In this document: positions 4,921 to 50,259 of the stretch, one piece after another
Layout of the letters: the number at the start of each line of letters is the position of its first letter
Numbering within the stretch: the first letter of the stretch is position 1
Assembly: GCA_963681505.1 (NCBI GenBank)
Contig: OY811975.1
Span: 4,882,490-4,946,489 of the forward strand
Length of the DNA stretch: 64,000 nt
Reading direction: 5' to 3'
From: Eunapius fragilis
Lineage: Eukaryota > Porifera > Demospongiae > Spongillida > Spongillidae
Position numbers and translations under genes: made by a program
The notes under the pieces: generated by a model
Databases searched by the model: none
The model's input: only the letters and a program-made list of their open reading frames with translations
What the model was told of the DNA's origin: nothing

Positions 4921-5110
4921 CAAGGTTAGAAGGAAAAAAAAAATTAACTGGGATTCGCTTATTGTTTCGCCGGTCACCGGGGTTAGGCGGTTTGGAATAT
5001 GAATACTGACTGTCGTGGTTATTCGGTGCGATCGTTTGACAAATATGCTGCGCCTGATGATCGCTTGTCGACATTCATAGCAGCCGCATTAGACAATGTT
5101 GTTTAATTCC

Positions 5111-7084: not shown

Positions 7085-7089
7085 ATTCC

Positions 7090-7529: not shown

Positions 7530-7978
7530 GTGTGGGGAGGGCATGGGTGGCCATGCCTGCTGTGTGGGGAGGGCATGGGTGGCCATGCCTGCTGTGTGGG
7601 GAGGGCATGGGTGGCCATGCCTGCTGTGTGGGGAGGGCATGGGTGGCCATGCCTGCTGTGTGGGGAGGGCATGGGTGGCCATGCCTGCTGTGTGGGGAGG
7701 GCATGTGTGGCCATGCCTGCTGTGTGGGGAGGGCATGGGTGGCCAGGCCTGCTGTGTGGGGAAGGCATGGGTGGCCAGGCCTGCTGTGTGGGGAGGGTAT
7801 GGGTGGCCATGCCCGCTGTGTGGGGAAGGCATGGGTGGCCATGCCTGCTGTGTGGGGAGGGCATGGGTGGCCATGCCTGCTGTGTGGGGAAGGCATTGGT
7901 GGCCAGGCCTGCTGTGTGGGGAGGGCATGGGTGGCCATGCCTGCTCTGTGGGGAGGGCATGGGTGGCCAGGCCTGCTG
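7530..7978. repeat. 30-bp minisatellite, short allele (about 15 units)
   Basis: Tandem copies of a 30-bp unit (core GGGGAGGGCATGGGTGGCCA) with scattered G/A and T/G variants. Because 30 is a multiple of three, several frames stay open on both strands and give fake 150-220 residue proteins rich in HACCVGRA or PSPHSRHGH. It lies about 140 bp upstream of MOB2 exon 2. Unit B has about 37 units. Confidence 0.95.
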
Positions 7979-8574
7979 TGTCTTTCTCAGTCTCATAGCG
8001 CTTACAATGGCACAAATTCTGTGCATCTCATGTCTCATATGGCCAGTTGGTGCATTATGCACATGTCTCCCACGTCACCTCTTCACCACCTCTTCCTCTC
8101 CCACCTCCCTCTAGCAAACCTAAAGCATCGCATGGCAGTGCAGTGGACAAAAGGCTGGCTTTCCTGGACCCTGAAGCCCTTGTAGTCAATGACGCAGTGG
8201 CTGGGAAGCTTCAACACTTTGCCAGGCTCCCCCCTCAAAGCGATGTGAATGAATGGTTGGCAACTAACTGTAAGCCCCCTGTGGGAAGGGGGGGGGGGGG
8301 GGCGGGTGGTATGGGGAGGAGGTCTGCCCCCTGCCCTTGGTGATTTTTCCCTATGGCACACTACTTTGATAAGCTGGTGTGTGTAAGGACAATCGGATCA
8401 TTATGTATTCCTGCGTGTACTGAGTAGTGTTCATGTGTGGCATTTTTACATTGTACATGCGTATAAATGCGGCTGTGAAACAAGCGAGAAATCAAATCAG
8501 CGTTTGTATGCACTGCATGTGCACTTATTCATTCCAGCATACCTGTGGTATCATACACGTCCCTGCTGTGTGTG

Positions 8575-20728: not shown

Positions 20729-22046
20729 AGAGCTTCGTCGAACGTCGGTCGATTCTTGGATGATTAACAATTGAATGTTGGGTGTTAATTAATATAAATG
20801 CATTATACATGAATTTTCTCCATAAGATTTAACCTTTGAGATGCATATATGGTACACATTCTGCTACAAAGGGTTATGTATTTGTACTCAGCTAAACACC
20901 CGCCTCAATAATGGTTAGTCGCGTCGCAGTTAGTTCGAACCTATCTCTAAAACCCATGCCCCACCCCTCCCCCCCCCCCCCCCCCCCCCCCCCCCCAAAC
21001 AAAGCAGTTGTTCGAGAAAGTTTTTACCTATAGGAAGCATCCATAAATGATGCCACGCATTTTTTGATGATACTTGAACCATGCATTCATATGTATGCCA
21101 CGAAATACGTGCTCAGACATTAAAATACATCACAGCGGTGGGTGGACTACACGGAGCGTAGCGGTGATGTTCCTATTTTAGAGTTTGGGCAAGACACTAG
21201 CAATAGAGCAATTTCATGTGTTCTAGTCTTCTGCGTTGTAATCAATTATGGAGAATACGAGTTTGAATTGTCACAATGGCGAAGGAACGGCGTCCTGAGC
21301 TGGCTACAACTCAGTAGCGGATCCAGGGGGGGGGGGCACAAATCATATTCACAATTAATTTTCCCATATATGGCATAGGTTGTACCATATATGGTGAAAA
21401 CGGCGGCGTTCGGAAAAACGGCGGCGCGCAACGTAATCAGCGGAACAAAATCCGGAACTTTAAGGGGTGCATGTCTGAATTAGAATGGCTGACCAGTATA
21501 GACAATGTGATTATACGTCACATACTTTCCTGAGACGATGTGCGTTTGTACGTCTTTCACCCATCCACAAACAATTATATGCTTCCAGAGATTTATATAT
21601 GCTTTGAACTGCTTGCTAGTTATAACACTGGTCTGCAGGTACTCAATACGATACCAAATCGCATGCACTAACTGGTGGTACAACGTCCGATTTTTCTCCC
21701 AACGAAGTCAGATGAGAACGATCTAGCCCACCCGCGCTTTCGATATCGAGCCTTTGCATCTGGAGGTAAGCTATCTGCATCCTTTGACATGCTTTACGTT
21801 TAAAAGAACCGGATACCCGAGCTACGGCGGACGTCAACTAATGATAATGCTACTACAGATCACGCGATGAAAGACATACCCAATTTTAAAAATATATGTC
21901 ACATCTCATTAGATCTACCAAAACGAAATATTTTTGACGTTGCTGAGATGGCAAACATACAAACGGCGCAGCCGTCTGCAGCATGAAACGACACAGCTCA
22001 CCAAGCATGCAGGGAAAAATGTTGATACATCTAATGAGCCAACATT
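20729..22046. other. Spacer between S copy B and the WDR60 remnant
   Basis: Near-identical to 603-1918, including the poly-C run (about 20962-20996) and the CCATATATGG inverted repeat. No gene supported. Confidence 0.6.
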
Positions 22047-23578
22047 AGGAGCTGAAAAGGGAGTCCAAATAGACTTCAAACAGCTTGAAGTCATGTCACG
22101 TGGACTATAAGAATTGTTCAGGTAATGCATCTCCAGATTGCCATCAGCAAAGGCCAGCAATAGACTGGGTGTGTCCTCAATGCAGTGCGGCAGTTGGCAG
22201 CAGACCACGCTGAAATTGAAAGAGAGTAGCAGAATGACACATAACGAAGAATTGCTGTGCCAACATGCACGCACATAGACTGTGGATTGGGAGGTGTGGC
22301 TTTGTCGAGAGGGGTGGGTGCCCTGGGTGGTTTATATAAAGTGTACTCCTGGGTCCATAGTACATATTCATGCACACACATACTCCTTGAGATGAGGGAC
22401 AGGCAAATAACCCTCTCGTGTAACCCACTACCAAAAGAGAGCTGACACCTAATAACACACAAATAACATGTGCAGTCACGGCTGGGAGTGAGGCCATATA
22501 TTGAGGCGTTGGACAACACCATGAATTGTGTTAACCAATGAATAGTACAAAATTCATTGCGTTGCCCATACATAATTGGCTTGTGTTGTGTGAGAATTAA
22601 TTGAAAACCGCACCTCAAACCTTTCTGCTCACCTAGATGAGATTTGGTGGCAGCACATTGGAGAAGCATCACACTGCAGAAGGTCCCTGTCATGAAAGAG
22701 ACCCACAACCATGCAGAGTGACATGGTACCACACGTCCATTCAGGTATACGCTTACCATATATAGATAACAGAGCTTTCGTCCAACACGCAAATAACCCA
22801 GGTTTGGATGGAGACCACTGGACAGACTGCACACTGGTTCCCCCAGTAGAACGAGGCCAATAAATCAGTGGGTGTTCTGTAATGTACACAGGATGGTTAA
22901 ATGCTTTACAGTATTATTCAAAAGCATTATTCAAACGTTTCAGCTCATGTTTTACCTCTGATGCTACTACTTATTCAGTATAAATATTAAAAAAAAAAGC
23001 TACCATTAAAAATGGAATTTGCATTGATATTGCTTTGCAGGGAGAGTTCATTACAACTGTAAAAGCCATGCAATATGTGACAGCCCTGAGAGGGAAGAAG
23101 GGGGAGGAAAGTGGAGGGGGTAGGAGAGGAGGGGTGAGGTGGGGAGGAGTGGGAAGGAGGGGTGAGGTGGGAAGAAGGGATGGAGAGTAATTTGAGTGAG
23201 ACTTACATGTAGGACAAAAATTGGCAGAACAATAACAGTTATTCAAGTTAATTATATGATACCAATAGAAACTAAGCAGGCAGCTTCAAGGGAACAGACT
23301 CTTGTAATGCAATGCAGCCTGAGAGAGCCATCAGAACCAGCTGATAAGAAATGATCTGGTCACTGTGGACAGAAGCTGATTGAAGTGTGACATCACAGAT
23401 CGCACCTGTCCATTGAGAAAGAGAGCCATGGCAGTGTGCCCATGCATCCTCCCCGCCCCCATCCCCACCCCCCCCACCCCCCACCCCAAAGTGCGATATG
23501 CTAACCTTCTATCTGACCAGATTCATGTATCTTTGGTACGGGCCTCCTTCCATATCTGGTGAAGTGGTGTACACATCC
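22047..23578 (-). pseudogene. Truncated WDR60/DYNC2I1 3' fragment, copy B
   Basis: The same five exons as in copy A, at 23506-23578, 23299-23405, 22757-22876, 22633-22686 and about 22047-22209. It shares with copy A the one-base loss in the 120-nt exon, the altered donor and the one-base loss near the C-terminus. In addition, the exon at 23299-23405 has gained two bases (GTGTGACATC for GTGACATC). Shared lesions show it was already dead when units A and B separated. It lacks everything upstream of the intron break near 23747. Confidence 0.85.
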
Positions 23579-23734
23579 CTGTCCAAGATAAGGAAAGGGG
23601 GAAGTGCTTTTGTAAGTACACGTACATGTAAAATAAATATACACAGGGGTGTGGTTATGGGCAATGTGAGAGGGTGTGGTTATGGGCCAGTGAGAGGGTG
23701 TGGTTATGGGCCAGTGAGAGGGGTGTGGTTACGG

Positions 23735-23760
23735 GGAATGTGTGAAGAATAAGTGAATAT
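23735..23760. other. Segmental duplication junction, unit B
   Basis: The same join of WDR60 intron sequence to MOB2 upstream DNA as at about 3706. Two units with an identical junction mean it was made once and then copied. Confidence 0.6.
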
Positions 23761-23873
23761 CCTTGCAAATGTGTGAATGTGATGAGTTCCAGATATTTGA
23801 ATTATTATTATTTTATTTTTATATAAATTGATTTTTCAGTGGATTACAAATCGATGCGTGAAGAACAGTACAT

Positions 23874-23874
<1 letters not shown>

Positions 23875-23921
<47 letters not shown>
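23875..23921. repeat. (AC)n microsatellite
   Basis: Unit B counterpart of 3834-3874. Confidence 0.95.
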
Positions 23922-23922
<1 letters not shown>

Positions 23923-24118
23923 CCTTCACTTTTAATTTTAAGTACCAGATACATGTACATGTGTAAACCTGTATGCGGCTTAGACTTACGTACATGTAGC
24001 CACTGGTGGCTATTTATAGAAGCAGGACTTGGTAACCTTCTCGTATGATGAAATTTCCTGTTGTGGATGCTGCCCCCTTTAGTGTGGTCTAGTGGTTACA
24101 TACTTTTGGCTGGGGAAT

Positions 24119-24196
24119 CTGGTGGTGAGCACGACAGAGGGGGAATCTGGTGGTGAGCACGACAGAGGGGGAATCTGGTGGTGAGCACGACAGAGG
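24119..24196. repeat. Triplicated GGGGAATCTGGTGGTGAGCA unit
   Basis: Three tandem copies of a unit of about 28 bp (GAATCTGGTGGTGAGCACGA core). Unit A (about 4070-4092) has one copy, so this expansion is private to B. Confidence 0.85.
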
Positions 24197-24497
24197 GTTG
24201 GGACACTTGGGATGGAGAGGAGTAGTGGTGAAAGGGCAATGGGGGGGGGGGGGGGGGACTAGGTACCATGTGGGGGGGAGGGGGACAGCTGTAGTGACAC
24301 CTTTATTGTTGTGTGTTGGCCCTTGCATATAAATTTTTGGAGGGCAGTCATTTCATTTTGGTGCATAGCATTTGACCTCTGACCTCGGACCATTAACTGT
24401 TGATGACATGTCTGAATGGGTCCCATGTTTCTGTTTTGTTTTGGGTCAAATATGTCTACATGTACATGTAGTGTGCAGTTTCAGCCTGATGGAGCAG

Positions 24498-24501
<4 letters not shown>

Positions 24502-24560
<59 letters not shown>
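24502..24560. repeat. (TG)n microsatellite
   Basis: Unit B counterpart of 4405-4487, shorter by about 24 bp. Confidence 0.95.
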
Positions 24561-24561
<1 letters not shown>

Positions 24562-24774
24562 TGTATGCACTTACACTAGGGATAGTTATCCATTGTGTCA
24601 TTACATATCCAGATCGTTGTATGCTGGTTTATAGCCTATGTCGCCTTGCTTGGGTAAGAAAACCCGAGGCCAAACTATGAAAAGGGCGCCACAAAGGGGG
24701 GGGGGCTTTCAGACTTAGGTATGGTTATACATGTACGTTGGTTACTTTGTATTGATAGCCCATATTGTTCATAT

Positions 24775-24806
<32 letters not shown>

Positions 24807-24882
24807 GGTTGTAGACAATGCTGGTTTAAAAACGGTCGAATACATGCAAGTATTTTATTTTAAGCCGGGCCACACTGTACAC

Positions 24883-24988
24883 GCCTCTTAAGGGGCGGGG
24901 CTTTTAAGATCGGCAGTGATATTCAATTTTGTTACGCATGCGTCGCGCGTTTGTTAACTGACGTAAGAATCGGATCAGGTGGAGATGC
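24883..24988 (+). promoter_or_regulatory. Candidate MOB2 promoter, unit B
   Basis: Same motif set as in unit A: GC box (24892-24900), ACGCATGCGT, and CRE-like TGACGTAA (24959-24966). The ATG at 24985 opens a basic frame MPKVRRKKNN, which differs from unit A because of one extra C just after the ATG. A first coding exon here is possible but not shown. Confidence 0.4.
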
Positions 24989-25176
24989 CCAAGGTTAGAA
25001 GGAAAAAAAAATAACTGGATTCGCTTATTGTTTCGCCGGTCACCGGGGTTAGGCGGTTTGGAATATGAATACTGACTGTCGTGGTTATTCGGTGCGATCG
25101 TTTGACAAATATGCTGCGCCTGATGATCGCTTGTCGACATTCATAGCAGCCGCATTAGACAATGTTGTTTAATTCC

Positions 25177-27161
25177 CAGGGCCGGCGCCGCAGGTCCGGT
25201 TGCACGGTTTTAACCGGACCACTTTTTATAACTGAGGGCTTTTTTTAATTACATCATTGTATATTCTTGCACTACGTCACTTCGCGTGCGCGCGCAATCC
25301 GTTATGCGTTAATTAGTACATGAACATGCTATTACTTTACACATGGTCAGATGTGGCGACCAAAGTCTCATCTGTTACATCTATATCAGCATGTTATTAG
25401 CTATACATGTATAATAAAGTTAACAGCATTCAGTAAAAAATAGCTACTGTTGTCAATGTGCGAGATTCGATTCCCAGCTTACCTGATGAGCCCCACCATC
25501 CTAAATCCTTTGCTTTTCCGAAGCGAAGCTTTGGAAAGACAAAACCTGTTTTTTGCTCAGCAAAGAGCCAGTGGTTCGATACTTGGCCTTTTCTCCATTA
25601 CGATGAAGGACAAGATGTGATGTTCTGCCACACTTGTGTCACTGCCTTTAAGCTGGGCAGAATTAAGTCAAGTAAAAACCCTGCAACTGCATTTATAAGT
25701 TTATACGCGAGCAAGCAATATGGTCATGCTTAGTGAGTGACAAATGTTTTTGTGTCTCAGGTAACTTCAGGATTTTGTAACTGGAAAGATGCCACTGTTG
25801 CTTTCAGTAAGCATCTCCAGTCCAAGTCTCACATTGAAGCAGTTGAAGCCGTCATTACACTTCCGAAACAAACAAAGGATGTTGGCGCGCAGCTTAGTAT
25901 TGCTCACAAAGCAGAGAAGGAGGAGGTAAGGGACATGTTGCAGATTATTCTGTCAAGTGTTTGCTTCCTTGCCAGGCAAGGGCTGGCCCTTCGTGGTGAT
26001 GGCAGCGATATGTCCTCTAACCTCACTCAGCTTCTTCATGTGAGAGCTGAAGGCAATCCAAAAATGCTACAGTGGATTATCAAAAAGGCTAGGCTTGCAA
26101 ACATATGCATCATGATAATCAAAATGAGATGCTATAGAGCTTATGCTCATCAAGTGCTGAGAAGAATTCTTGATGACACACACACCTCTCCTTTCCTTGC
26201 TGTGATGGTAGATGAAACCAGGGATCAATCTAACAAGGAGCAGCTGACCTTAGTTCTGAGATGGTTAGGGATGACTTCACTGTTTCAGAAGAGTTTGCTA
26301 CCTGTTAGTGATAGATGCTCAGAGCATTGTGGATGCCATAAAAAGATGCCTTTTTGCGGTTCCAGATACCTTTCACAAAGCTTCGTGGTCAGTACTATGA
26401 TGGATGTAGCACCATGGCTGGAGCAACAGCTGGTGTAGCTGTAAATATCCAGGAATTGGAGCCTCGAGCTGAGTTCACACATTGCTATGGCCATGCACTC
26501 AACCTAGCTGTTAACGATACAATAACAAAGGTACCTAAAATGAAGGACTGTCTGGACACCTGTTACGAAATAGTGAAGCTGATTAAGTTTTCACCAAAAC
26601 GAGAGACCATGTTATCTCAACTTAAAGAAGAGATGGGTAGTGATGCTCCAGGTGTTAGAACCCTATGCCCAACAAGTTAAGGTGGACTGTTCGTGCTGAA
26701 TCAATATATAGCATTCTTGCCAACTACGACCACATTCTGCTGCTGTGGGAGACTGGGGTGCATGAAACAGAGATGAAGGCAATTAAGGATTCTGGGGGTG
26801 CGGAGTCAAATGCAGTCCAACTTTCTTTTCTGCATTGTCTTGTCTGAGATGATTTTGTGGCATACTGACAAGCTTAGTAAGACACTACAGCAGCCAACCT
26901 ATCCAGCATTGAAGGGCATGATATAGCGATGTTAACTGTAAAAACCCTTGAAGGTTTGCGAAATGAAAATGACTTTGAGCGGTTTTGGCAGAAGATTGAA
27001 AAAATGAGAGTGCAGTTTGATATTGATGAGCCATTGCTACCAAGGAAGCGAAAGGTACCACAGCAATTTGAGACAGGCGCTCCCCCATACACCCTAGCTG
27101 GGCTGGTTTGGGTCACTAACTGTACAACTGGACCACTCTTTACACCGCGGCGCCGGCCCTG
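25177..27161 (+). mobile_element. hAT-type DNA transposon, unit B copy
   Basis: Same insertion as 5111-7084: identical 15-bp ends and ATTCC flanks (25172-25176, 27162-27166). The zinc finger and hAT core are present but broken, with private differences such as five extra bases near 26090 and an in-frame TAA next to the LCPT-R-W motif near 26680. Presence at the same site in both units shows the insertion predates their duplication. It sits between the putative MOB2 promoter and exon 2, in the gene's own orientation. Confidence 0.88.
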
Positions 27162-27166
27162 ATTCC

Positions 27167-27605
27167 ACTACGACTTGCGGTGTTAAAGGTTAGTCTGAAG
27201 CAAGGAGGAGGCACTTTGTTAACTTTCTGGGATGAAGGTTTCGGGCAATTAGTTGTCTAGCTTCAACTGAAGCCATACCGGCCACCAGACCCTCGTAGTG
27301 GTGCGCTTTAATTTAATTATGTTTAACCTCCCCCTGTCCTACACTTTTTGGAATCCCTTGTGTTGGTATGGCCTAGTAATTTTAACAGCCATACAGGGCA
27401 CCTAATCTCTCTTGCTATGATAGGGTTTTTTAGGTGCATTACATTTTGTGGTTGTCACCACTACAAGTAGACATGGTCTGTAGTTGTCACTACAGATGCA
27501 TTGGGTATACATAGTCTGTGGTTATTTGCTATTTGCTATGTGACATGCATGTGAATCAAAGGGAAAAATTTTAAAACTTGGATTCCACTTTTCTTTTTTT
27601 CCCCG
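27167..27605. other. Spacer, nothing recognised
   Basis: Counterpart of 7090-7529. No gene, RNA or repeat recognised. Confidence 0.4.
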
Positions 27606-28727
27606 TGTGGGGAGGGCATGGGTGGCCATGCCTGCTGTGTGGGGAGGGCATGGGTGGCCATGCCTGCTGCGTGGGGAGGGCATGGGTGGCCATGCCTGCT
27701 GTGTGGGGAGGGCATGGGTGGCCAGGTCTGCTCCGTGGGGAGGGCATGGGTGGCCATGCCTGCTGTGTGGGGAGGGCATGGGTGGCCATGCCTGCTGCGT
27801 GGGGAGGGCATGGGTGGCCATGCCTGCTGTGTGGGGAAGGCATGGGTGGCCATGCCTGCTGTGTGGGGAGGGCATGGGTGGCCATGCCTGCTGTGTGGGG
27901 AGGGCATGGGTGGCCATGCCTGCTGTGTGGGGAGGGCATGTGTGGCCATGCCTGCTGTGTGGGGAGGGCATGGGTGGCCAGGCCTGCTGTGTGGGGAAGG
28001 CATGGGTGGCCAGGCCTGCTGTGTGGGGAGGGCATGGGTGGCCATGCCTGCTGTGTGGGGAGGGCATGGGTGGCCAGGCCTGCTGTGTGGGGAAGGCATG
28101 TGTGGCCATGCCTGCTGTGTGGGGAGGGCATGGGTGGCCAGGCCTGCTGTGTGGGGAAGGCATGTGTGGCCATGCCTGCTGTGTGGGGAGGGCATGGGTG
28201 GCCATGCCTGCTGTGTGGGGAAGGCATGGGTGGCCATGCCTGCTGTGTGGGGAGGGCATGGGTGGCCATGCCTGCTGTGTGGGGAGGGCATGGGTGGCCA
28301 TGCCTGCTCTGTGGGGAGGGCATGTGTGGCCATGCCTGCTGTGTGGGGAGAGCATGGGTGGCCAGGCCTGCTGTGTGGGGAGGGCATGTGTGGCCATGCC
28401 TGCTGTGTGGGGAGGGCATGGGTGGCCAGGTCTGCTGTGTGGGGAAGGCATGGGTGGCCAGGCCTGCTGTGTGGGGAGGGCATGGGTGGCCATGCCTGCT
28501 GTGTGGGGAGGGCATGGGTGGCCAGGCCTGCAGTGTGGGGAAGGCATGTGTGGCCATGCCTGCTGTGTGGGGAGGGCATGGGTGGCCAGGCCTGCTGTGT
28601 GGGGAAGGCATGGGTGGCCAGGCCTGCTGTGTGGGGAAGGCATTAGTGGCCAGGCCAGCTGTGTGGGGAGGGCATGGGTGGCCAGGCCTGCTCTGTGGGG
28701 AGGGCATGGGTGGCCAGGCCTGCTGTG
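27606..28727. repeat. 30-bp minisatellite, long allele (about 37 units)
   Basis: Same 30-bp unit as 7530-7978 but about 2.5 times as many copies. Variants (GGCC-A-GG against GGCC-A-TG, GGGAAGG, GCATGTG) alternate in recurring blocks, which suggests expansion by multi-unit duplication. The 340-440 residue frames on both strands are artefacts of the 3n period. Confidence 0.95.
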
Positions 28728-28861
28728 TCTTTCTCAGTCTCATAGCGCTTACAATGGCACAAATTCTGTGCATCTCATGTCTCGTATGGCCAGTTGGTGC
28801 ATTATGCACATATCTCCCACGTCACCTCTTCACCACCTCTTCCTCTCCCTCCTCCCTCTAG

Positions 28862-37317: not shown

Positions 37318-38066
37318 TCATAGTACGTAAAACTCCCATTGTTCTAGTCCAACGTTTTCCGCAGTCAGAACATCGTTCATACATAATCTCATCTCCAGAT
37401 CGCCCGTCACAGGTGAAGACAGCTTCTTACAAAACCAAGGCTGGACTGTAGGGAGACAGCATGCAACCTCTACGTCACCACAAGTCATTCCATCCCACAG
37501 CACGTCGTTAAGAGCGTAAGTTGCAGTATTATAAGTGTTCGACCTAGGAACACCAGACTCACAGTACTGGCTGGCGCCTACAAAGGTGGGGGCGGCCGGG
37601 CCTGATGAACACGGACAGTTGTGGCCGTTTGCCTGGTTGGACTCGTACTTGCCAATCCCGTACGACCAGAGGTGGTTCCTCGGGCTACCGTAGGTGATAC
37701 TCACGCCGTCAACGTACAGGCTATCTATAGTAGTCGTCGTGCCGGCGAAGGCGTTCTCAGCGGTGCCATATTGGTACCCCGCAATTCGGCCGCACACTGT
37801 TTGCCATCTCAGCCCCAAGGTGGAAATGGTCACCGAGTCACAGGAGCTACCTGTAGATTTTTGGCACAGGGTGCGTCCCCCCGAAACTGCAATACTGGCG
37901 AGTTTCGTCGGGCACTGCTTGACTGTGTCTGTCAGGAGATTGACGCTGGTTAAACGTGCAAAGCCGCTGGTATTGGAGAGACCGAAGTAGGAGAGGTTAG
38001 TGAATGTATCAAATCGACAGTAGATGCGAACCGCCCCTCCGGTGGCGTTTAGGACCCAGAAGTAAC
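37318..38066 (-). pseudogene. Secreted fibrinogen-like protein, copy C, C-terminal half
   Basis: Matches copy B from the fibrinogen-like GYF site to the stop, including TYGSPRNHLWS, CPCSSGPAAPTF, FVGASQYCESG, DVLWDGMTCGD and PWFCKKL. The differences from B are mostly substitutions plus one in-frame gain of three bases near 37876. The gene is cut at 38066 by the 11.9 kb transposon; its first part lies at 49978-50259. The insertion alone is enough to silence it, and the reading frame is otherwise well kept, so the insertion is probably recent. Confidence 0.9.
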
Positions 38067-38344
38067 AACCGCTTGGAAGTTAGCACCACATTCCTCAGCA
38101 CCACATTCCAATTAATTTGTAATGTGATTAAGATGCGGCCTGACGATAATCATTAATGCGGCCAACATTAATCGCGGCCAGAACGTTCAGGTACATGTAG
38201 CTAGCTGCTTGCGTGGAAGGAAAACAGCCTACTTACCAGTTCACGACACGGCCTGTAATATGAGCCGGGCTTCCACATATGGACTGGAATCACGGTACTT
38301 TTTGTGTCCAAGGCGCCTGGCTAACCCTACCAAGTTGCACAGAA

Positions 38345-41300
38345 ATGAGACTTTTTATTGTACAGGTGAACCCGCAACCATGATGCACAAAAACAGGGCG
38401 ATGGAATGGTATGGCAGAGGCATAGGGACATCTCACTAGGTCTGTCTGACACTGCTATGCACTTTTTGTGTGCTATGTCCCTCCCCTTTGAGAACCGTAG
38501 CTATGTCAATCATTCCTTTTATAGTACAGGTGACCCGCAACCATGATGCACAAAGACAGGGCGATGGACTGGTATGACAGAGGCATAGGGACATCTCACT
38601 AGGTCTGTCTGACACTGCTATGCACTTTTTGTGTGCTATGCCCCTCACCTTTGTGAACCGTGGCTATGTCAATCATTCATTTTATAGTACAGGTGACCCG
38701 CAACCATGATGCACAAAAACAGGACGATGGACTGGTATGACAGAGGCATAGGGACATCTCACCAGGTCTGTCTGACACTGCTATGCACTTTTTGTTTGCT
38801 ATGCCCCTCCCCTTTGAGAACCGTAGCTATGTCAATCATTCCTTTTATAGTACAGGTGACCCGCAACCATGATGCACAAAGACAGGGCGATGGACTGGTA
38901 TGACAGAGGCATAGGGACATCTCACTAGGTCTGTCTGACACTGCTATGCACTTTTTGTGTGCTATGCCCCACCGTAGCTATGTCAATCATTCCTTTTATA
39001 GTACAGGTGACCCGCAACCATGATGCACAAAAACAGGGCGATGGACTGGTATGACAGAGGCATAGGGACATCTCACTAGGTCTGTCTGACACTGCTATGC
39101 ACTTTTTGTGTGCTATGCCCCTCCCCTTTGAGAACCGTAGCTATGTCAATCATTCCTTTTATAGTACAGGTGACCCGCAACCATGATGCACAAAAACAGG
39201 GCGATGGACTGGTATGACAGAGGCATAGGGACATCTCACCAGGTCTGTCTGACACTGCTATGCACTTTTTGTTTGCTATGCCCCTCCCCTTTGAGAACCG
39301 TAGCTATGTCAATCATTCCTTTTATAGTACAGGTGACCCGCAACCATGATGCACAAAAACAGGGCGATGGACTGGTATGACAGAGGCATAGGGACATCTC
39401 ACTAGGTCTGTCTGACACTGCTATGCACTTTTTGTGTGCTATGTCCCTCCCCTTTGAGAACCGTGGCTATGTCAATCATTCCTTTTATAGTACAGGTGAC
39501 CCGCAACCATGATGCACAAAAACAGGGCGATGGACTGGTGTGGCAGAGGCATAGGGACATCTCACTAGGTCTGTCTGACACTGCTATGCACTTTTTGTGT
39601 GCTATGCCCCTCCCCTTTGAGAACCGTGGCTATGTCAATCATTCCTTTTATAGTACAGGTGACCCGCAACCATGATGCACAAAAACAGGGCGATGGACTG
39701 GTATGACAGAGGCATAGGAACATCTCACTAGGTCTGTCTGACACTGCTATGCACTTTTTGTGTGCTATGCCCCTCCCCTTTGAGAACCGTAATCATTCCT
39801 TTTATAGTACAGGTGACCCGCAACCATGATGCACAAAAACAGGGCGATGGACCGGTGTGGCAGAGGCATAGGGACATCTCACTAGGTCTGTCTGACACTG
39901 CTATGCACTTTTTGTGTGCTATGCCCCTCCCCTTTGAGAACCGTGGCTATGTCAATCATTCCTTTTATAGTACAGGTGACCCGCAACCATGATGCACAAA
40001 AACAGGGCGATGGACTGGTATGACAGAGGCATAGGAACATCTCACTAGGTCTGTCTGACACTGCTATGCACTTTTTGTGTGCTATGCCCCTCCCCTTTGA
40101 GAACCGTAGCTATGTCAATCATTCCTTTTATAGTACAGGTGACCCGCAACCATGATGCACAAAAACAGGGTGATGGACTGGTATGACAGAGGCATAGGGA
40201 CATCTCAACAGGTCTGTCTGACACTGCTATGCACTTTTTGTTTGCTATGCCCCTCCCCTTTGAGAACCGTAGCTATGTCAATCATTCCTTTTATAGTACA
40301 GGTGACCCGCAACCATGATGCACAAAGACAGGGCGATGGACTGGTATGACAGAGGCATAGGGACATCTCACTAGGTCTGTCTGACACTGCTATGCACTTT
40401 TTGTGTGCTATGTCCCTCCCCTTTGAGAACCGTGGCTATGTCAATCATTCCTTTTATAGTACAGGTGACCCGCAACCATGATGCACAAAAACAGGGCGAT
40501 GGACTGGTGTGGCAGAGGCATAGGGACATCTCACTAGGTCTGTCTGACACTGCTATGCACTTTTTGTGTGCTATGCCCCTCCCCTTTGAGAACCGTGGCT
40601 ATGTCAATCATTCCTTTTATAGTACAGGTGACCCGCAACCATGATGCACAAAAACAGGGCGATGGACTGGTATGACAGAGGCATAGGAACATCTCACTAG
40701 GTCTGTCTGACACTGCTATGCACTTTTTGTGTGCTATGCCCCTCCCCTTTGAGAACCGTAATCATTCCTTTTATAGTACAGGTGACCCGCAACCATGATG
40801 CACAAAAACAGGGCGATGGACCGGTGTGGCAGAGGCATAGGGACATCTCACTAGGTCTGTCTGACACTGCTATGCACTTTTTGTGTGCTATGCCCCTCCC
40901 CTTTGAGAACCGTGGCTATGTCAATCATTCCTTTTATAGTACAGGTGACCCGCAACCATGATGCACAAAAACAGGGCGATGGACTGGTATGACAGAGGCA
41001 TAGGAACATCTCACTAGGTCTGTCTGACACTGCTATGCACTTTTTGTGTGCTATGCCCCTCCCCTTTGAGAACCGTAGCTATGTCAATCATTCCTTTTAT
41101 AGTACAGGTGACCCGCAACCATGATGCACAAAAACAGGGTGATGGACTGGTATGACAGAGGCATAGGGACATCTCAACAGGTCTGTCTGACACTGCTATG
41201 CACTTTTTGTTTGCTATGCCCCTCCCCTTTGAGAACCGTAGCTATGTCAATCATTCCTTTTATAGTACAGGTGACCCGCAACCATGATGCACAAAGACAG

Positions 41301-41605
41301 GGCGATGGACTGGTATGACAGAGGCATAGGGACATCTCACTAGGTCTGTCTGACACTGCTATGCACTTTTTGTGTGCTATGCCCCTCCCCTTTGAGAACC
41401 GTGGCTATGTCAATCATTCCTTTTATAGTACAGGTGACCCGCAACCATGATGCACAAAAACAGGGCGATGGACTGGTATGACAGAGGCATAGGGACATCT
41501 CACTATGTCTGTCTGAAATTGTTATGCACTTTTTGTGTGTTATGCCCCTCCCCTTGAAGACCGTGGCTATGTCAATCATTACTTGAATTGTATTAGTACA
41601 ATACA
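38345..41605. repeat. About 162-bp satellite array with higher-order structure, inside the transposon
   Basis: About 20 tandem copies of a monomer of about 162 bp (landmarks TACAGGTGACCCGCAACCAT and CACTTTTTGTGTGCTATG). Within it a 969-bp block of six monomers, including a shortened one that lacks GGCTATGTC, is repeated without visible change (39183-40151 and 40152-41120). The recurrent short frames here are monomer translations. The array begins about 230 bp inside the left end. Its role is unknown; repeats near the ends of transposons can bind transposase. Confidence 0.9.
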
Positions 41606-41963
41606 TTACCTGGAGCCATTCAAAGGACAGTCTAGTTTGAGCATTGGTTATTTAGAGGGCAGACAGAGAGGCAGGCTTGACCTACTAACCTTTTTGCAGA
41701 CGGAGAGGCAGGCTTGACCTACTAACCTTTGACAAAGCTCCCTTTTAACACACCATTCAAGTGGCGTTCAAAGCAATTGTTCTCTCGATCACGGAAGCTG
41801 AAGTCATCGAACCATTAATAGATATATAGAATTGTTTGGGCTATATATATATATATATATAAGTACCACCAGCATAAATGCAGTCTGTGAAAGATTTGTT
41901 TGCTATGGTATGTTGATTTCAATTCATATCTGCGCGGTGTGTATAACCAGATGAATCTGTCAG

Positions 41964-42412
41964 GGGAAGAAGAAATACAACATAGACTTTGCGAGACTCA
42001 TTGCTGTTATCAGAAAGAAAGGCCTCCCTCCTCTCAATTCCTCCCGATGTGGCCCGAATGGATACTGGTTCTTAGTTGCTGCAGCTTTATCTAACTGTAT
42101 CAAACCATCAGATAATTATGTTCTTGCTGTGTATAAATGTTGGCAGTACAACAAAGGTGGTCTGCGCACATCTCTTGGTAAGGCATCAGTACATAAGTGT
42201 CTCACAAATTTGCTACTATAGTTTCTGTATTATTATTTACTGAAGGCGAGTTACAGCATCAGGACAAAGAAGTGATTGGAGGCACAGAAGAAGGTGTAGA
42301 CGACGATGGTGACATGGATGATGTGAGTGGTGGTGATGTTGCTGAGGTGCAGGAGGAATTTGTTCCGTTATATGTTGGAGATGAAAGCTTGGTCGAGCCA
42401 AGGTTTGCTGAT
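41964..42412 (+). CDS. N-terminal exons of the transposon gene (unrecognised domain)
   Basis: Two exons with good borders: 41964-42177 (after CTGTCAG, before GTAAGG) reads KKKYNIDFARLIAVIRKKGL, then CGPNGYWFLVAAALSNC and CWQYNKGG; 42246-42412 reads GELQHQDKEVIGGTEEG, then an acidic DDDGDMDDVSGGD stretch. No domain recognised in the first; the acidic stretch resembles linkers next to chromatin readers. An upstream start exon was not found. Confidence 0.5.
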
Positions 42413-42491
42413 AAATACTAAAAAAATAGCCATATAAATAATGCTCTATACTACATGTTTATATAATTTTGAATGGAGTATTGGAATGCAA

Positions 42492-42914
42492 GTTGTTACG
42501 CCGATCGCGAATCATCAACAAGCAATAAACCTCGAAGCCTTGCTTCGTGAAGACGAGAAATTATACTGCATCTGTCAGGAACCTTTCGATGAGTCAAGGT
42601 TAAACAGTACCTGGTCAATTACAAAAATTGATGTGTAATGTTCTTCATTTTAAAAGGTTCATGATAGCATGTGACTACTGTGGCAAATGGTATCATGGCG
42701 ATTGTGTCGGGATATCTTTAGAAAAATCTCTATGTATCACTGCATACAAATGCTCTGCATGTACCATGGAAGGCATACCCACTCCCTTCTATACAACTGA
42801 AGGTTCGTTTTCATTAATGTTGCTTTGAATATATGTTACTATAGTAAAAGCATTAATTTTTAATTACTAGCTGCACAGCAAAAGGAAGATACTCAAATTA
42901 CATCAATTCATGAG
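42492..42914 (+). CDS. PHD zinc finger exons of the transposon gene
   Basis: Exons at about 42492-42599 and 42657-42802, plus a short one at 42871-42914. The eight zinc ligands of a PHD finger are complete across the intron: CIC, CDYC, H-x2-C in WYHGDC, and CSAC, with the usual W before the histidine. PHD fingers read histone H3 tails, so this domain may bind target chromatin or help choose insertion sites; that use is inferred. The next exon starts at 43400, after about 480 bp of AT-rich intron. Confidence 0.8.
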
Positions 42915-43399
42915 GTATATGCTATATGTTGTGCATGTTGCTGTTATGCTGCAATTCCGTATGAGTACTGAACATGGTACAAAGAAATAGTTGCAATGTA
43001 ATGAGTATTTTTAAAAATACTTTTTATTTTAAGAATATGTTATTTTAAGATTATCTTTTAATTCACCAGGTTATTAATCTGCATAATATTTTTCAGTTAG
43101 GGCAATAATTACTAACACAAAGTCAAAGTGTTGAACGCATAAAATAAAGTTGTTAGTATGATGCATGTAAATTCCATGCTGATATAGTCTGCTTATCAGG
43201 CTAGAGCCCATAAGGCTCTAGAGCCTCACATCTATGATGCTGCACTTGGGACCCCCCGCCACCTCGGTAGCTGTAGGCTGCTGTAGGTGCCTTGGGGCTT
43301 AGCCACGGCCTGCGGCGGCCACTGGCGGGGTTTGAGTTTATGGTGTGTAACTCTGCATGGCGGTAGAGTGTATAACATTATTTGTATCTTTCATATCAG

Positions 43400-45487
43400 T
43401 CAGGCCTATCAAGGCAAACTGCTATATGTCTTGGTAAATCAATGGAAATTTATGAAGGCCACAATGCTGTTATGAGGAAATCACTAGATCAGTTTGGAAA
43501 ATTTGACATAAGCCAAGATGAATTCCTCTTACATTTTGGCAATGAGAAAGTTAATCCTTCATGGGTTCATTTATTTTCTAAAGGATTGGCTGAAATCAAT
43601 ACATACTGCAGTTTTGCGTTTAGAAAACATTGGATTAAAAAAAAATCTTCTTCTAAATCATCTAATTTCTTCTTTAAAGCTAATGCTTATTGCACATTTT
43701 CTACGTGTAATGTGCTAGCATTTCTGGACATTAAAGATGAAGGATTGTCAAACACTAATGTAACCATAAATGTCAAGTTTGAGGGGAGCATATGCCATAT
43801 CGCCAGCGAACGACATGCTCGTAGATTGAGTCTAAGTGTCAGAAAAGATACACAGACATATTTCCAACAGACGCGTATACCTCCATCTAAAGAGTATATA
43901 GGAAGGCTTATGAAGCTCACACCTGGACAATTTGCAACAGGAAATCGCGACAATGTAGGCTGTAACCCTTCTGCATTACGAAAAATATCATCGGAAGCAA
44001 GGCTTGCATTACAAGAAGACGAAAACCTTGTATCATCTCTGCTAATACTTAAACAAATATTTGAATTAGATGAGGCAAAACTTGTCAAAGAAGAATTTAA
44101 CCAAAAACCAGCTGTTTGTGGGTACATACAGTGTATTCAGGCCTCTCCATTTGCAGTTATATGCTTCAATGATGCAGCAGTGAGGTTGTATCACGAAGTA
44201 GCAAAGAGAAACCCTATATTTTGTGATGCTACTGGCACTATAGTGTCTGTTCGTAATGAGGCTGGAAATAAACTTGTAACGTACTACTACAGCCTAGTGA
44301 TAAAACACCCCATCAGAGGCAAACCGCCAATTGCAGTGGCAGAATTAATATCAACGGATCACACTGTTTTAACTGTTTGCTACTTTATTAATTGCTTTCG
44401 ACGAGCAGAGGGTTTAATATTTGGATTTAATAATCTCATTAGCCCCAAACACATAGTCATTGATCGCAGTATGGTTTTGTTGCTGAGCTTTTTGCAGGCA
44501 TTTAATATGGAAACATTACACGAATACCTCCAAAGAACCTTCCGTGTATGTAGTGGAGCAGGAAGTGACAAGGATATTAAAAAGATATCTCCTCATGCCT
44601 GTACTAGTCACGTGATGAATTCTGCTAAAAAGGATTGCAAAAAGTGGTGAGTTTTATTAATTTAGATGTTTTCAATAGTAAAATGCAATATTTTTCTTCT
44701 ACCGTAGGTTTCAGAAAAGGCTGTATTCTTTTTCTATGTACAGCTTTTCTAGCCTCGTAAACTGTACAACTTTAAATGAGTTGGTGAAGAGATTATGTCT
44801 CTTAAAAGTATTGTATTGCTCAGAAATGGAATCAGTAGATACCAGAAAAGCATACAATTGTATTGTCAGGATTATAAACTTACTTAATAAAGAAACATTA
44901 ACCTTGCCACATGAAAACGATTACTGCAATACAGAGGAAATATTAAATGACTTATCAGATTATGATAATGACTCATTACATGTGCAACCTTTTGGGGCAT
45001 ATTTCCAACTTAAAGTGGCAAAAGTGAGCCTAACATCACAGGAAAAGTGTAAAAATATGTATTACCAACCACATTTTTTCTTAACGATCATTGAGAAATG
45101 GATGCCAATGGCACCATTTTGGACATGCCTGATGCTGGGTAAAATTTAACTTGTCGTATATAGTGTTCATAATTTCAATTTTTTTAATTTAACAGGCGAT
45201 CTGGAACGTCATAAAGCAGAAAAGGCTTTAGATGCAACATCTCTGGTAATATAATTATGGCTGTAAAGCCGTACACAATTTAGTTGATGGATATTATGGT
45301 ACAACAGAATGAACTGACACGAACAGCTGGAACAATTGAAGCCTGGAATTATATTCTGAAAAAGGTCGATCATTCGCAAAAGCGATTGCGACCTGATGTA
45401 TTCTTAAAAGAACACTACCCTTTGATAATTGCACGACAAAGGCAATTCTTTGACGACATGACACAGCCTATTAAAAAACGAGTAAAG
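43400..45487 (+). CDS. DDE transposase of the 11.9 kb element
   Basis: A large exon 43400-44646 follows ATATCAG, then 44709-45139, a short exon near 45196-45248, and about 45283-45487. Candidate catalytic acids are the Asp in NPIFCDATGTIVS, the Asp in HIVIDRSMVLL, and the Glu in TAGTIEAWNYIL followed by KRLRPDVF. A C-x2-H motif (HACTSHVMNSAKK) follows the second Asp, as in Mutator-like transposases. The frame is open over the whole 1.2 kb exon. This is the mobilising enzyme. I call it MULE-like from the motif order; a profile search should decide between MULE and KDZ/Zisupton. Confidence 0.75.
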
Positions 45488-45539
45488 GTGAGTTGTTCTG
45501 CTAGCTACGTAATGTGCTATAATTATTTTCTAATTAGAA

Positions 45540-47291
45540 ATCTCTTCTAAGAAAGCCATCTCGGCCACTTAAAGAGAAGTGGCAAAGACGAATTATCGAC
45601 ACAAAAAGATCCCATGGATTTTTCCAGCAGCCTCCTAAAGAATTAATACATTTGATTGATATTGATGAGTTTACTGGTATGACAATGCTGTATATCAGCA
45701 TTGTAGTTTATGATTTTTTTTTGGTTGTTGTTGCCGTACTGGGATTGTTCCAGCCAAAGAAGTTGCCATGGTAAGCTTTCCAAAGCATGTTACTTTTACA
45801 TCACCCTGTAACCTGGCTATGTTCTCCCCATACTACTCACATCAGCAACCAGACAATGACCCTCTCCCCACATCTTTTCCCGTTCAAAATTCTAGCAGCA
45901 CATTGTTTCCAAACCCATCATCACCAGCACAACCATCTCCAAAGTCACCATCATTATTACCACGATCATACCAGTTACAAACGAAAGAGAAAACAGCATT
46001 GGGAGATATGATTGAAGTTAATAAGAAACTTAATTCAGGACTTAAAAGTAGTTCCAATCTTTGCTGGCTGAATTCGGTTTTGCAATCTCTTAGTTGCACT
46101 CCATTGCTGCTGATGCTGCAAGGTAAACTACCCATATCATTCAAGTTGGAACAGCTAGTAATTTTTATATACTATAGCACTGCCTTCAACCGGTTTGACT
46201 CCACTTCAAGCAAGCTTTGTGGACCTAATGCAAAACCTCAAGAACACTGAAAAACGTTATTGTATATCTACTGACTTTGCAGTAAGGGTTTTTCAGTATC
46301 TTTACAGCTACAGTTAATAATAGCTCTACTCCAATAGAAGTTGCTAACAAGGGAAGCTGTATTCCTTCAGTATGGAGCTCAAAATGATTGCTGTGAAGGA
46401 ATTATGGCAATAATAGAAAAGTTACTTATGTCAACTAATGTAAATTTTAATTTGTTTTGAGCAGCACACATTGGTAACCACTTTTTTTTTACAGATGCCA
46501 TACAAGTGTGAGGAGGTTTTTAGAACAAAGTTCAACAAGGTTGCACATTGCTGTTCATTGGTAATTGCTGTTCTTAAAAGTTTAGTATTGACTTCACACT
46601 TCTCATCTTAAATAGCCTGTGCATGAGGTTTCATCATGTACTGTAGTTTCATGTGGTGATTCATCAAAAAGAAATGTGTTTGAGTCAATGTTGGTCTATC
46701 TGGAAGCAACTGTATTATCACACATGGAAGTACAAACGTAAGTACCTTCCCATGGCACATCTGTAAGTGATTACTGTTTCTTTCAGGTGTTGTGAAAAGT
46801 GCAATAATTCTTTAGACATTATAGAAAGTCACATGCTGCTTCCACCAGTATTAATTATTCACTGCAATCGGGTGTCAGATGAGAATACATCTGTCAAGCT
46901 TAAAAGCCAAGTAATTGTTCCAAGGTGATTTCTTTATGATTCAAAAAGAAACACTATTTTCATATCTAAGTACACAGATGGCAACAATTATCTCATCCAA
47001 GTATCGATGGAAGCATATGTTACGAGCTGAGTTCAATAGTCGTGAGCAGATAAATCTTGATTATCAGTAGTACTAGTATTGATTTATTTATCTTCACATT
47101 AAAGATCCATCATGGAGAGAGTGCTACAAGTGGACATTGTAACTAAATCATTTGCTTAATTCATGGTATAAATTGTGGTTCTAATACAGATACGTGTGCA
47201 GTAAGAAATCAGAACAAGTGGATATTGTATAATGAAGCTAAAGTTACTGAAATTCAAACTTCACACTACAACACAATGCCGGAAGTAGAGG
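45540..47291 (+). CDS. USP-type (C19) deubiquitinase region of the transposon
   Basis: A Pro/Ser-rich linker (about 45850-45960) leads into the Cys box NLCWLNSVLQSLSCTP (near 46055-46100), then LTPLQASFVDLMQNLK, CCEKCNNSLDI (zinc-knuckle-like CxxC) and LPPVLIIHCNRVS (near 46780-46925). The His box is split by an intron: ESATSGH at about 47115-47147, then YTCAVRNQNKWILYNEA from about 47190 on. The order and spacing fit the ubiquitin-specific protease fold, and both catalytic Cys and His are present. The domain is short (about 350 residues) and spread over 7-8 small exons. USPs cut ubiquitin from proteins; within a transposon it may protect the transposase or counter host silencing, which is inference. 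Confidence 0.75.
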
Positions 47292-47330
47292 TATGTAATA
47301 TTTATTTTGAATAGCATTGATATCATTCTT

Positions 47331-47600
47331 TTGCAGGAAAACATTTGCCTTGCTATATATGCATCATGCATGAAAGATGCAAGTTACTATATTACGGGGT
47401 ATTTTGTTACTCAAAACGCTTCTAATCCACTTAGACCTTTATTGATAAAATTAATTCCACTCAACCCATATGTGTTGGCACCCAATTTGTAAGAACATAT
47501 CTAGGCTTAATGCTCTGCTTAAAGGATATGCTTTCCCAACAGCCGTTTGTTGGCTTGCCAGACCACTTGGAAGCCAAGGTTTGCACGTGACCCTAAGTGC
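47331..47600 (+). CDS. Linker exons between USP and Ulp1 regions
   Basis: A frame near 47338-47490 reads NICLAIYASCMKDASYYITG, then LRPLLIKLIPLNPYVLAPN. Splice borders were not settled and no domain is recognised. Confidence 0.35.
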
Positions 47601-47635
47601 AATTATATGCATGCAATGTTTTGTTTGATACATAA

Positions 47636-48580
47636 AGATACAAGGAAATACATTAAAGCCACATTCCAGATTTCAGCTTCTGGAAACAGATATATTGGCT
47701 CTGGTATCAGGAGATTGGATTGATTCTCGAGTAAGTTCTCAAGATCTGGCAACGGTTAGCAAGGTTTCATTCTTGAATGTGCTCATTTAGGTAATTGTTG
47801 CATACATGGAACTTCTGCAAACATCCTTGTCAAGTGTAATCTAATTATCCAAATTTCTTTGCTCTAGTTCTGAAGTAACTTTCATTGTGTTACAACCAGG
47901 TGGGGAGAACAGTGATGTGCTTTGATCCCTTACTGATTCCAATCTTAAGAGCAAATGGTTTTGAAGCAGTATCAACACTTTCGAAAGTATGTATGAAAAG
48001 CAATCATTGTTACATGCATAAATTATACAATACTACAAGGGAGTAAACATATTGATGTATGATGTGCTACTCTTCCCTGTACACAAGACCAAACACTGGT
48101 GTTTGATGGTTGGTTAAAATAGATTCAGATTTGTTGTCATGTATTTCATGAACCTGACAGGTGGTCCACCCTCACCAGAAAACTGTTGATTGCTTTGACC
48201 CATTGCATGACTCAAATGATGATGCCTTCAATTGGATATGGTTAGATAATGTGATAATTTGTATAGTACATTGAAATATTTTTTCTAATTTAAGGCTGTA
48301 CATTTGCACTGAGGTTTACCATAACTTGAAGCAAAGGCTGTCAATCTCAGATTGGAAATACAATGACTCAAAAGTATGCACTTCTAGTGTTACCATCATG
48401 TGATGTAATATATTTTTAGACCAATGGTTCACCAGCTCAAACAAATTCAGTAGATTGCGGTACTTTTTTATGTTTCGTAAGAAAAAATTATGTTTTATTA
48501 TCCAGCAGTTTTCAGTGAATTGATTATATTATCAGGCTGCTCGATTACAGGCTGAAGGTTTGCCATGCCTGCATACGCAG
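47636..48580 (+). CDS. Ulp1-type (C48) SUMO protease region of the transposon
   Basis: Small exons with GT-AG borders, approximately 47636-47730 (DILALVSGDWIDSR), 47792-47837 (VIVAYMELLQTS), 47901-47987, 48040-48108 (VLLFPVHKTKHWCLM, the His box), 48161-48239 (DCFDPLHDSND, the Asp), 48295-48372 (LYICTEVYHNLKQRL), 48419-48477 (PAQTNSVDCGTFLCF, the Gln and Cys) and 48536-48580. The full catalytic set His-Asp-Gln-Cys is present in the right order, so the enzyme may be active. It follows the USP region on the same strand, so one long fusion protein or two adjacent genes are both possible. Confidence 0.82.
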
Positions 48581-48619
48581 GTATGTTTAATAGTCCATGC
48601 CTTTAGTGGTTACTCTTAT

Positions 48620-49683
48620 ATCATTATGCTGCTGAAAGGAAATGATGAACACATTCAGACACCAGATGGCCTATGAGCTATCTGAAGGAATGCTATACCC
48701 ATTGCAAGGCAGCTCTTCCTGTTGTGCATGGAATTATACAAAAGATACTCCAAAGGTGCACTAAGAGCCCCAGGATAACATTCTTAATTTTCTAACCATG
48801 CGTTTGCAGGCTGATGATGATGGTAGTGATAGCGTTGTCATGGATGAAGAAAGAGAGTTTCAAAGTGATGGTATGGGCCATTGTAGGGTAGTACTGTCAT
48901 AGTGTATGAGAAAAAAAACGTGTAACTTCTCATTTCAGAACAAGATCATGATGTATCAGATTACTCTGATGGTGGCGGAATGCACAAACGATTTTGCAGT
49001 AAATTTCTCATTCCTACCTATGTTAATACTCCTGATCCAGATGACATCACTGCTCTTAAATGGGGCAGAGATCATTACATCCGTTTTTATCCGACATTGA
49101 GCAGACTGCCATACACGTAAGATGAATAAGAGTGATTATCATATTATAATTGCCAACCCTTTGAAGGGAAAAATCATGTCCTTTCACACGGGAGTTCATA
49201 AGAAGTGTAGTAAAGGACATGGAAGTAAGATAGAAAATGTTACTACAAGAATATATCATGCTTTTATAATTATAGCCTACTATCAGAAAGCTTCAGAATG
49301 GACAGCTACTTAGTGAATATCATGGGAATATTCCTATTGTTAAAACGCTTGTGAAAAATGACTCATATTGGCCTTTGCAGCACTGTCAAGATATGGTAAG
49401 TTGCATGTGTCAACTTTAACCACAAGTCAATGGGATCATTTTAGGTTGATGAAATAATTCATTACCTTATGGAAGTGGAAAGTGACTGCAAGAAAACTGC
49501 TTCAGTTTCCATGACACCCATGAACAAACTTATTGTATGGCCAGAAGTAAGGCACGTAGTGTATACATAATACGCAAATGACATGACTCTTTCATAGATT
49601 GTTACATCACTTATCATGAAACACTATAATATCAGTCGCAAGGAAGCGATTGCGCACTACCTTGCACACACATTTCCAGAATG
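48620..49683 (+). CDS. C-terminal exons of the transposon gene
   Basis: Frames suggest an acidic segment (DDDGSDSVVMDEEREFQSD, about 48810-48870), DHDVSDYSDGGGMHKRFCSK (about 48945-49010), DDITALKWGRDHYIRFYPTL (about 49040-49100) and a last exon from about 49613 ending AIAHYLAHTFPE with TGA at 49681. No known domain. The stop lies about 250 bp inside the right inverted repeat. Confidence 0.5.
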
Positions 49684-49977
49684 AATATGTTCGTATTTCG
49701 TAGTTCGTATTTCGTATTACTTTTTGTGTTCACCTACTATCGTGCCATTGCAACGCAGGCATTGAGGCACAAAAAGTCCCTAACGGTACGACGTGCGGCG
49801 CGCGCACAGGTTATAGCCCTCCCTCCGACAGGCACCTTGTTGCCGCACAGAAAGTCCCTAACGGTAAGATTAGAGTGCGGCGCGCGTCAGCAAGCGCACG
49901 CGCACCTTTTGATTATAGAATAATCGAATTACGTTGGAATGTGGTGCTGAGGAATGTGGTGCTAACTTCCAAGCGGT

Positions 49978-50259
49978 GAAGTAACCGGAGATGCTGCTAG
50001 GATATGCAAGGAGCACTTGCTGGCAGGTAGTAGCCGGCTTGACCTGGGATGATCCTATGGGAAGAATACACCCACTCAGCGAGTTATCTATCATAGAGGC
50101 CACCTGGGTTGCTATTTGACTTTTGATCGCGTCCAGTTCGGTTTGAGTCGAACATGCCGACTTGACGATAGTAGGGGGCAGCGTGGTTGGGCATTGAGCA
50201 TCGCACCGCTCCGGAAGGCTGGTGTACAACAGCGTTAATACTAGAAGAGTCTCAAACAT
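49978..50259 (-). pseudogene. Secreted fibrinogen-like protein, copy C, N-terminal part
   Basis: ATG at 50259, the same signal-like leader, CDAQCPTTLPP, and the sequence up to the GYF site, where the 11.9 kb transposon begins. Read through, the frame would run into transposon DNA after SSISGYF. The other part of the gene is at 37318-38066. Confidence 0.9.

Follow-up and report, generated by a model that had tools for sequence, protein, structure and literature searches.

Here we describe a transposon in the genome of the sponge Eunapius fragilis whose gene model joins a PHD finger, a DDE transposase region, a ubiquitin-specific protease (USP) and a Ulp1/SENP-type SUMO protease. The element lies in a 64,000-nucleotide stretch of contig OY811975.1 (C5:4882490-4946489; hereafter the window), to which positions refer unless a genomic contig is named, and was followed through a genome of 219 Mb in 24 contigs. 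A preliminary description of the window had claimed that a single mobile element carries all four domains on one strand; one continuous plus-strand frame, matches to Pfam profiles and conserved catalytic residues uphold this claim, which is almost certainly correct.

The element, its ends and its gene

The body of the transposon spans 38068-49977, and its ends are as first proposed, with inverted repeats of 44 nt that match each other perfectly and a flanking duplication that agrees at 8 of 9 positions (Table 1). The host gene that it interrupts is also present without interruption elsewhere in the window, again as originally noted: there are two intact paralogues, to which both flanks, searched separately, align at overlapping positions (20447-20454 and 321-328).

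All 36 introns of the gene model are GT-AG and consistent in phase, and the model contains no in-frame stop in the window copy. Exons were read by eye from GT-AG signals and by our own splice-aware alignment, the gene being known from genomic sequence alone; the exon joins 47405/47543 and 47578/47659 were selected with the help of two related families, D and F, introduced below.

The profile searches suggested in the preliminary description gave matches for three of the four domains. A provisional version of the window's family (family A) protein, of 1725 amino acids and not the final 1727, matched the Pfam models UCH (E = 3.3e-23), Peptidase_C48 (4.5e-16) and PHD (7.9e-7), all above the gathering score, and the family F protein gave 3.3e-27, 2.4e-15 and 1.6e-8, respectively. 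The USP domain thus combines the Cys and His boxes of Peptidase C19 with a profile match, and the Ulp1 domain the His-Asp-Gln-Cys set of Peptidase C48, present in 6/6 families, with profile matches in both scans. No Pfam transposase model, MULE (Mutator-like element) included, matched the A or F protein at E<=1 or a family D fragment at E<=0.01, a profile search of the Protein Data Bank (PDB) with the DDE core returned nothing below E 0.79, and 53 and 54 pattern matches to this core in viral and genome contig sets yielded none confirmed by tblastn. The DDE region is assigned because D, D, C..H and E are invariant in six families (the glutamate being placed from position and conservation), because the duplication is 9 bp long and because the element is evidently mobile. 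A C..H motif between the second D and the E is a feature of MULE transposases, and a 9-bp duplication falls within the 8-11 bp range of Mutator-like elements. The earlier label "MULE-like" therefore holds by anatomy, not by profile.

Table 1. Features of the transposon in the window
Feature	Position	Strand	Basis or remark
Left target-site duplication, gaagtaaca	38059..38067	.	pairs with 49978-49986, 8/9 bp
Left terminal inverted repeat, 44 nt	38068..38111	+	perfect inverted match
Left subterminal segment, common to families A and B	38112..38352	+	one B copy compared, 98% over the outermost 315 bp
Tandem array, 163-bp unit x 20	38353..41584	.	repeat analysis
Single gene model, 37 exons, 1727 amino acids, open in the window copy	41878..49684	+	exon reading and splice-aware alignment
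PHD finger exons (C4HC3), closest to BPTF/PHF2/PHF8	42479..42802	+	Pfam, PDB-sequence matches, alignment
Putative DDE transposase region	43400..45487	+	residues invariant in 6/6 families
DDE residues D513, D592, HAC..H, E832	codons 44225, 44462, 44594, 45338	+	
Proline-rich linker, fast evolving	45538..46022	+	15% mean amino-acid identity
USP (Peptidase C19) domain	46023..47405	+	C1031 (codon 46062), H1259 (47135), N1274
Ulp1/SENP (Peptidase C48) domain	47659..48580	+	profile, SENP matches, alignment
Ulp1 residues H1415, D1432, Q1479, C1485	codons 48094, 48197, 48438, 48456	+	
Acidic stretch and C-terminal region, homologous in family B	48666..49684	+	one pair, 45% identity
Right terminal inverted repeat, 44 nt	49934..49977	-	perfect inverted match
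Right target-site duplication, gaagtaacc	49978..49986	.	8/9 bp against left

Among solved structures, the closest match of the USP domain was USP21 (9.5e-10), followed by USP9X, USP12, USP46, USP2 and others. The Ulp1 domain appears SENP1/2-like, with SENP1 and SENP2 at 1.9e-20 to 4.8e-18 and SENP3 and SENP5 near 1e-9; SENP8, the NEDD8 enzyme, was not among the 15 sequences found at E<=0.01, which favours SUMO as the predicted substrate. For the PHD finger, the best matches were BPTF in family A (1.6e-15) and PHF2 in family F (1.9e-18), with PHF8, KDM7A, CFP1 and DIDO1 just behind. All six of these proteins are readers of histone H3 trimethylated at lysine 4 (H3K4me3), a mark of active chromatin. 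At the aromatic-cage positions of such readers, W and M were found in 6/6 families, F or Y at the second cage position in 6/6 and Y at the first in 5/6 (H in family E). The idea that the finger could read silencing chromatin, raised in the preliminary description, is disfavoured by this resemblance, a matter of sequence similarity only.

Copies in the genome

The element is not confined to the window, and the proteases are not peculiar to one copy, two points on which the preliminary description had seen its proposal as vulnerable. The 44-nt terminal inverted repeat (TIR), allowing <=3 mismatches, has 58 matches in the genome versus 0 for the reversed pattern. Probing the genome with the left end gave 87 candidates, 40 of which were scored; 29 of these, the window included, match over >100 bases, and in the other 11 the match is short and falls in the TIR region. 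From the 28 ends besides the window's, 20 were sampled: 14 are attached to the window's body (family A) and 6 to a different one (family B). Aligned blocks of family A are mostly 97-99.8% identical to the window element.

The family A set thus comprises 15 copies, window included, with both ends in hand for 13. Eleven of the 13 are flanked by a perfect 9-bp duplication, each a different one, the window has its 8/9 and one copy (c20) has none; the DNA fetched around c2 and c11 yielded no right end. The length of the duplication speaks against the KDZ elements, in which it is 8 bp. Both proteases are covered to >=95% in 11 of the 15 copies. Two of the 14 copies other than the window's (c4 and c6) keep a fully open frame with every splice site, c6 being 99.8% identical to the window element over the part compared; in the remaining 12, part of the exons is gone or lesions are present. 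Two broken copies, c5 (C5:4143906-4157831) and c7 (C3:3792632-3804270), sit at different sites within different duplications, yet two frame-breaking insertions and a stop are common to both; they were probably mobilized by transposase supplied in trans.

Judged from alignment coordinates, the 163-bp array ranges from ~8 to 32 units among A copies (loci L009-L028). Because it varies in length among mobile copies, transposition would appear to spread satellite DNA with a unit of near-nucleosomal length. A variant of the TIR with the same 3 differences occurs as facing pairs 1.2-8.4 kb apart (C1:7187852-7189034, C3:7595536-7596918, C6:4049715-4058096 and C10:2913475-2916504), perhaps a further, partly non-autonomous family.

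Related families and conservation of the four domains

A genome search with the DDE exon turned up, among the best candidates scored and apart from family A, less similar loci, of which the closer ones have 46-62% identity. Six families (A, B, D, E, F and G) were compared through one representative copy each, those other than A being read by splice-aware alignment with the A protein as guide. Each of the five non-A representatives carries PHD, DDE, USP and Ulp1 in that order. Such a guide may favour the order found in A; intron positions were withheld from it, and the introns that coincide with those of A in place and phase number 7-8 of 9 in USP and 6-9 of 10 in Ulp1. A second stretch of family D (L047) likewise has USP followed by Ulp1. 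A genome search with Ulp1 placed same-strand exon matches downstream of at least 16 non-A transposase loci (7/7 of family B and 9 others), the pairing of exons with loci being made by eye and single matches being weak (up to E 0.011); at three further transposase loci only USP was found among the matches listed.

The families share about half of their residues with one another, while their silent sites are near saturation, with fourfold sites differing at 57-72% across family pairs. Over the 15 pairs, mean amino-acid identity is 56% in PHD, 54% in DDE, 49% in Ulp1, 40% in USP and 15% in the linker, and the proportion of columns invariant across the six families is 35%, 32%, 25%, 14% and 2%, respectively. 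Against this background the Ulp1 H, D, Q and C are kept in 6/6 families, the USP His in 6/6, its Cys in 5/6 and D or N at its third triad position in 5/6; the DDE D, D, E and C..H are kept in 6/6. Retention of domain identity in the face of such divergence at fourfold sites points to purifying selection on the proteases, and because the four domains recur together in each of six diverged families, the pairing of USP with Ulp1 looks functional, not accidental. We predict with good confidence that both proteases are active in at least some families.

The family G copy (L043, C2:5290000-5297000) has lost the codons for the USP Cys box, the rest of USP being open. The left end of family B is 98-99% identical to that of A (L015, L019, L020, L021, L022 and L025), although their proteins agree at only about half of the residues, and the B gene lies in the opposite orientation to A relative to the common left end; the two families have probably exchanged ends recently. 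The region upstream of this gene holds a tandem array (L041+L038+L019, C18:4589066 onward) in which a 173-bp unit is repeated at least 49 times over 8.4 kb. A motif common to the 163-bp unit and a 153-bp repeat unit was not found in the 173-bp unit or in the right end of A. The far TIR of family B was not reached within the DNA fetched, beyond which its array extends, and arrays flank the B gene on both sides.

Relation to known transposons and possible role of the proteases

On anatomical grounds we class the element as Rehavkus-like within the Mutator group, Rehavkus transposases being compared here by description only. Papers cited in this section are represented by excerpts. Rehavkus, a Repbase group found in arthropods and annelids, has a 9-bp duplication, TIRs of 26-400 bp, a PHD finger and a minisatellite before the 3' TIR (PMC6446971), and Rehavkus-1_TC of Tribolium, 9.5 kb long, has inverted ends that contain a satellite with a 164-bp unit (PMC10218199). 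The sponge element shares the duplication length, terminal inverted repeats within that size range and the PHD finger within the transposase. A satellite near a terminus may be a further likeness, but in family A it follows the 5' TIR instead of preceding the 3' one, and in family B arrays lie on either side of the gene. The element differs in its proteases, since neither USP nor Ulp1 is mentioned for Rehavkus in the excerpts of these two papers.

Mutator elements with Ulp1 have been described from hydra, lancelet, Arabidopsis, maize, rice and melon; these too are Mutator-type elements with a SUMO protease, but no USP is mentioned for them in the excerpt (PMC2836005), and the sponge transposase matches no MULE profile. 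Ginger1 elements carry a C-terminal Ulp1 or OTU domain, and one hydra family has both Ulp1 and PHD; they differ from the sponge element in having one protease per family, no USP and an integrase-type transposase, as far as the same excerpt goes (PMC2836005). The Trichomonas protein XP_001314237.1 (transposase_11 with Peptidase C19) likewise joins a transposase to a USP, but its transposase domain is another one and the excerpt mentions neither Ulp1 nor PHD (PMC2836005). Helitrons and Helentrons carry VTD and OTU deubiquitinases, 121 VTD-containing Helitrons also having OTU; the VTDs assayed from zebrafish react with ubiquitin and some with NEDD8, none with SUMO probes (PMC9741609). They resemble the sponge element in having more than one de-modifying cysteine protease per transposon, whereas Helitrons are rolling-circle elements. 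Finally, RAG1-RAG2/TransibVDJ is a transposon-derived recombinase with a PHD finger in which RAG1 has a RING ubiquitin ligase (PMC4411706); unlike the sponge element it consists of two proteins, and its ubiquitin part adds rather than removes.

Pairings of a transposase with Ulp1 and with USP are therefore already in print, separately, and a role of the ubiquitin and SUMO pathways in transposition was suggested by Bao et al. 2010 (PMC2836005). A literature search, whose scope did not extend to Repbase, preprints and most subscription papers, found no paper on USP and Ulp1 in one transposase, and the combination is not described in the excerpts of PMC2836005, PMC6446971, PMC10218199, PMC9741609, PMC13359780, PMC6431247 and PMC4411706; nor did the literature searched, as excerpted, contain an experimental test of the role of Ulp1, OTU or USP in transposition. 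In the sponge, a single gene model contains both kinds of eraser, which have persisted through deep divergence and are present in young copies (that of the window and the two that are fully open). Two active sites in one transposase gene would offer a way to ask if a transposase is under the direct control of SUMO and ubiquitin.

The preliminary description had suggested that the element edits ubiquitin and SUMO marks on its own transposase or on silencing chromatin, a proposal that we regard as hypothetical. On balance, we favour as the overall explanation a Mutator/Rehavkus-type cut-and-paste DNA transposon with a multidomain transposase that combines tethering with self-protection. The PHD finger would bind H3K4me3 and hold the transposase at active, open chromatin, that is, at H3K4me3-marked promoters. 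Such tethering is probable from the closest relatives of the finger, and the insertion in the window, a single case assessed by eye and situated early in the host reading frame, fits it. The DDE core, to judge from its anatomy and from the mobility of the element, would cut and join DNA. Both proteases may guard the transposase, or the complex it forms with DNA, against SUMOylation and then ubiquitylation, preventing extraction and degradation of the transposase before integration and repair. DNA-bound proteins are cleared through the route of SUMO-targeted ubiquitin ligases, which uses SUMO and ubiquitin marks; because the two proteases match these two marks, self-protection is our first choice for their main role, with action on chromatin second, a ranking that we offer tentatively. 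It is conceivable, with similar reserve, that this transposase is the first to be armoured in cis against SUMO-then-ubiquitin clearance, with SENP-type and USP-type erasers tied to an H3K4me3 reader and kept through at least six families.

Several observations weigh against the favoured explanation. The G copy lacks the USP Cys codons, and the third triad residue of family E is S. The oxyanion position, five residues ahead of the USP cysteine and occupied by N in most USPs, carries S in family A, G in family D and N in B, E, F and G; USP activity may thus vary among families. The linker exon models of families B-G are weak, and 0 linker introns are common to A. Distances of the modules show no congruence above the chance level, a correlation with DDE as high as that observed being reached by 120 of 720 exact permutations for USP, 307/720 for Ulp1 and 213/720 for PHD, in a star-like pattern that leaves this comparison little power. 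Divergence of exons relative to introns within family A is mixed (lower in exons for c4, c10, c20 and c21, not for c3, c9, c16 and c19), and codon changes within A are too few to gauge selection (12 synonymous and 16 nonsynonymous in c2, c4 and c6 together; 37 and 76 in c20 and c21).

Instead of protecting the transposase, the proteases might act outwards, stripping ubiquitin and SUMO from histones or silencing factors at the donor or target and thereby enabling expression or insertion. Their junction with a PHD finger of the histone-reading type is in keeping with this, as is the established SUMO-dependent silencing of transposons in animals; the finger, however, resembles readers of active H3K4me3 and not of silenced chromatin, and we consider outward action somewhat unlikely. 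It is also unlikely, and a little more so, that the element holds two genes, one for a PHD-transposase and a separate accessory gene for USP and Ulp1. Poor conservation of the linker, the uncertainty of its exon models in families B-G and in-frame ATG codons at 45768 and 46008, before USP, would suit such a division, but the splice model of the window copy reads through in a single frame, and the junctions to either side are GT-AG. The model of one polypeptide carrying all modules rests on this open linker frame in the window copy and in two others.

That Ulp1 or USP serves as a maturation protease, splitting a giant protein into transposase and accessory parts, is quite improbable: the long, variable linker (15% identity) between modules could accommodate cleavage and C48-like enzymes process proteins in some DNA viruses, but the closest solved relatives of both domains are ubiquitin and SUMO isopeptidases. 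Capture of host exons by one copy was rejected, the same domains being found in the same order in six families, and the broader notion of captured exons or dead cargo, although Mutator-like elements pick up pieces of host genes (PMC6446971, PMC6431247, in excerpt) and 12/14 other A copies are damaged, is scarcely credible given six diverged families with the proteases in the same place, common introns and conserved catalytic residues. As the preliminary description had held, the proteases belong to the element.

Elsewhere in the window, a large duplication joins 1-7981 and 20127-28056 at 96% identity, and its surroundings contain the uninterrupted paralogues of the host gene. An array of a 32-bp unit (x 35) lies at 27605-28728 and has a 14-copy counterpart at 7530-7981.

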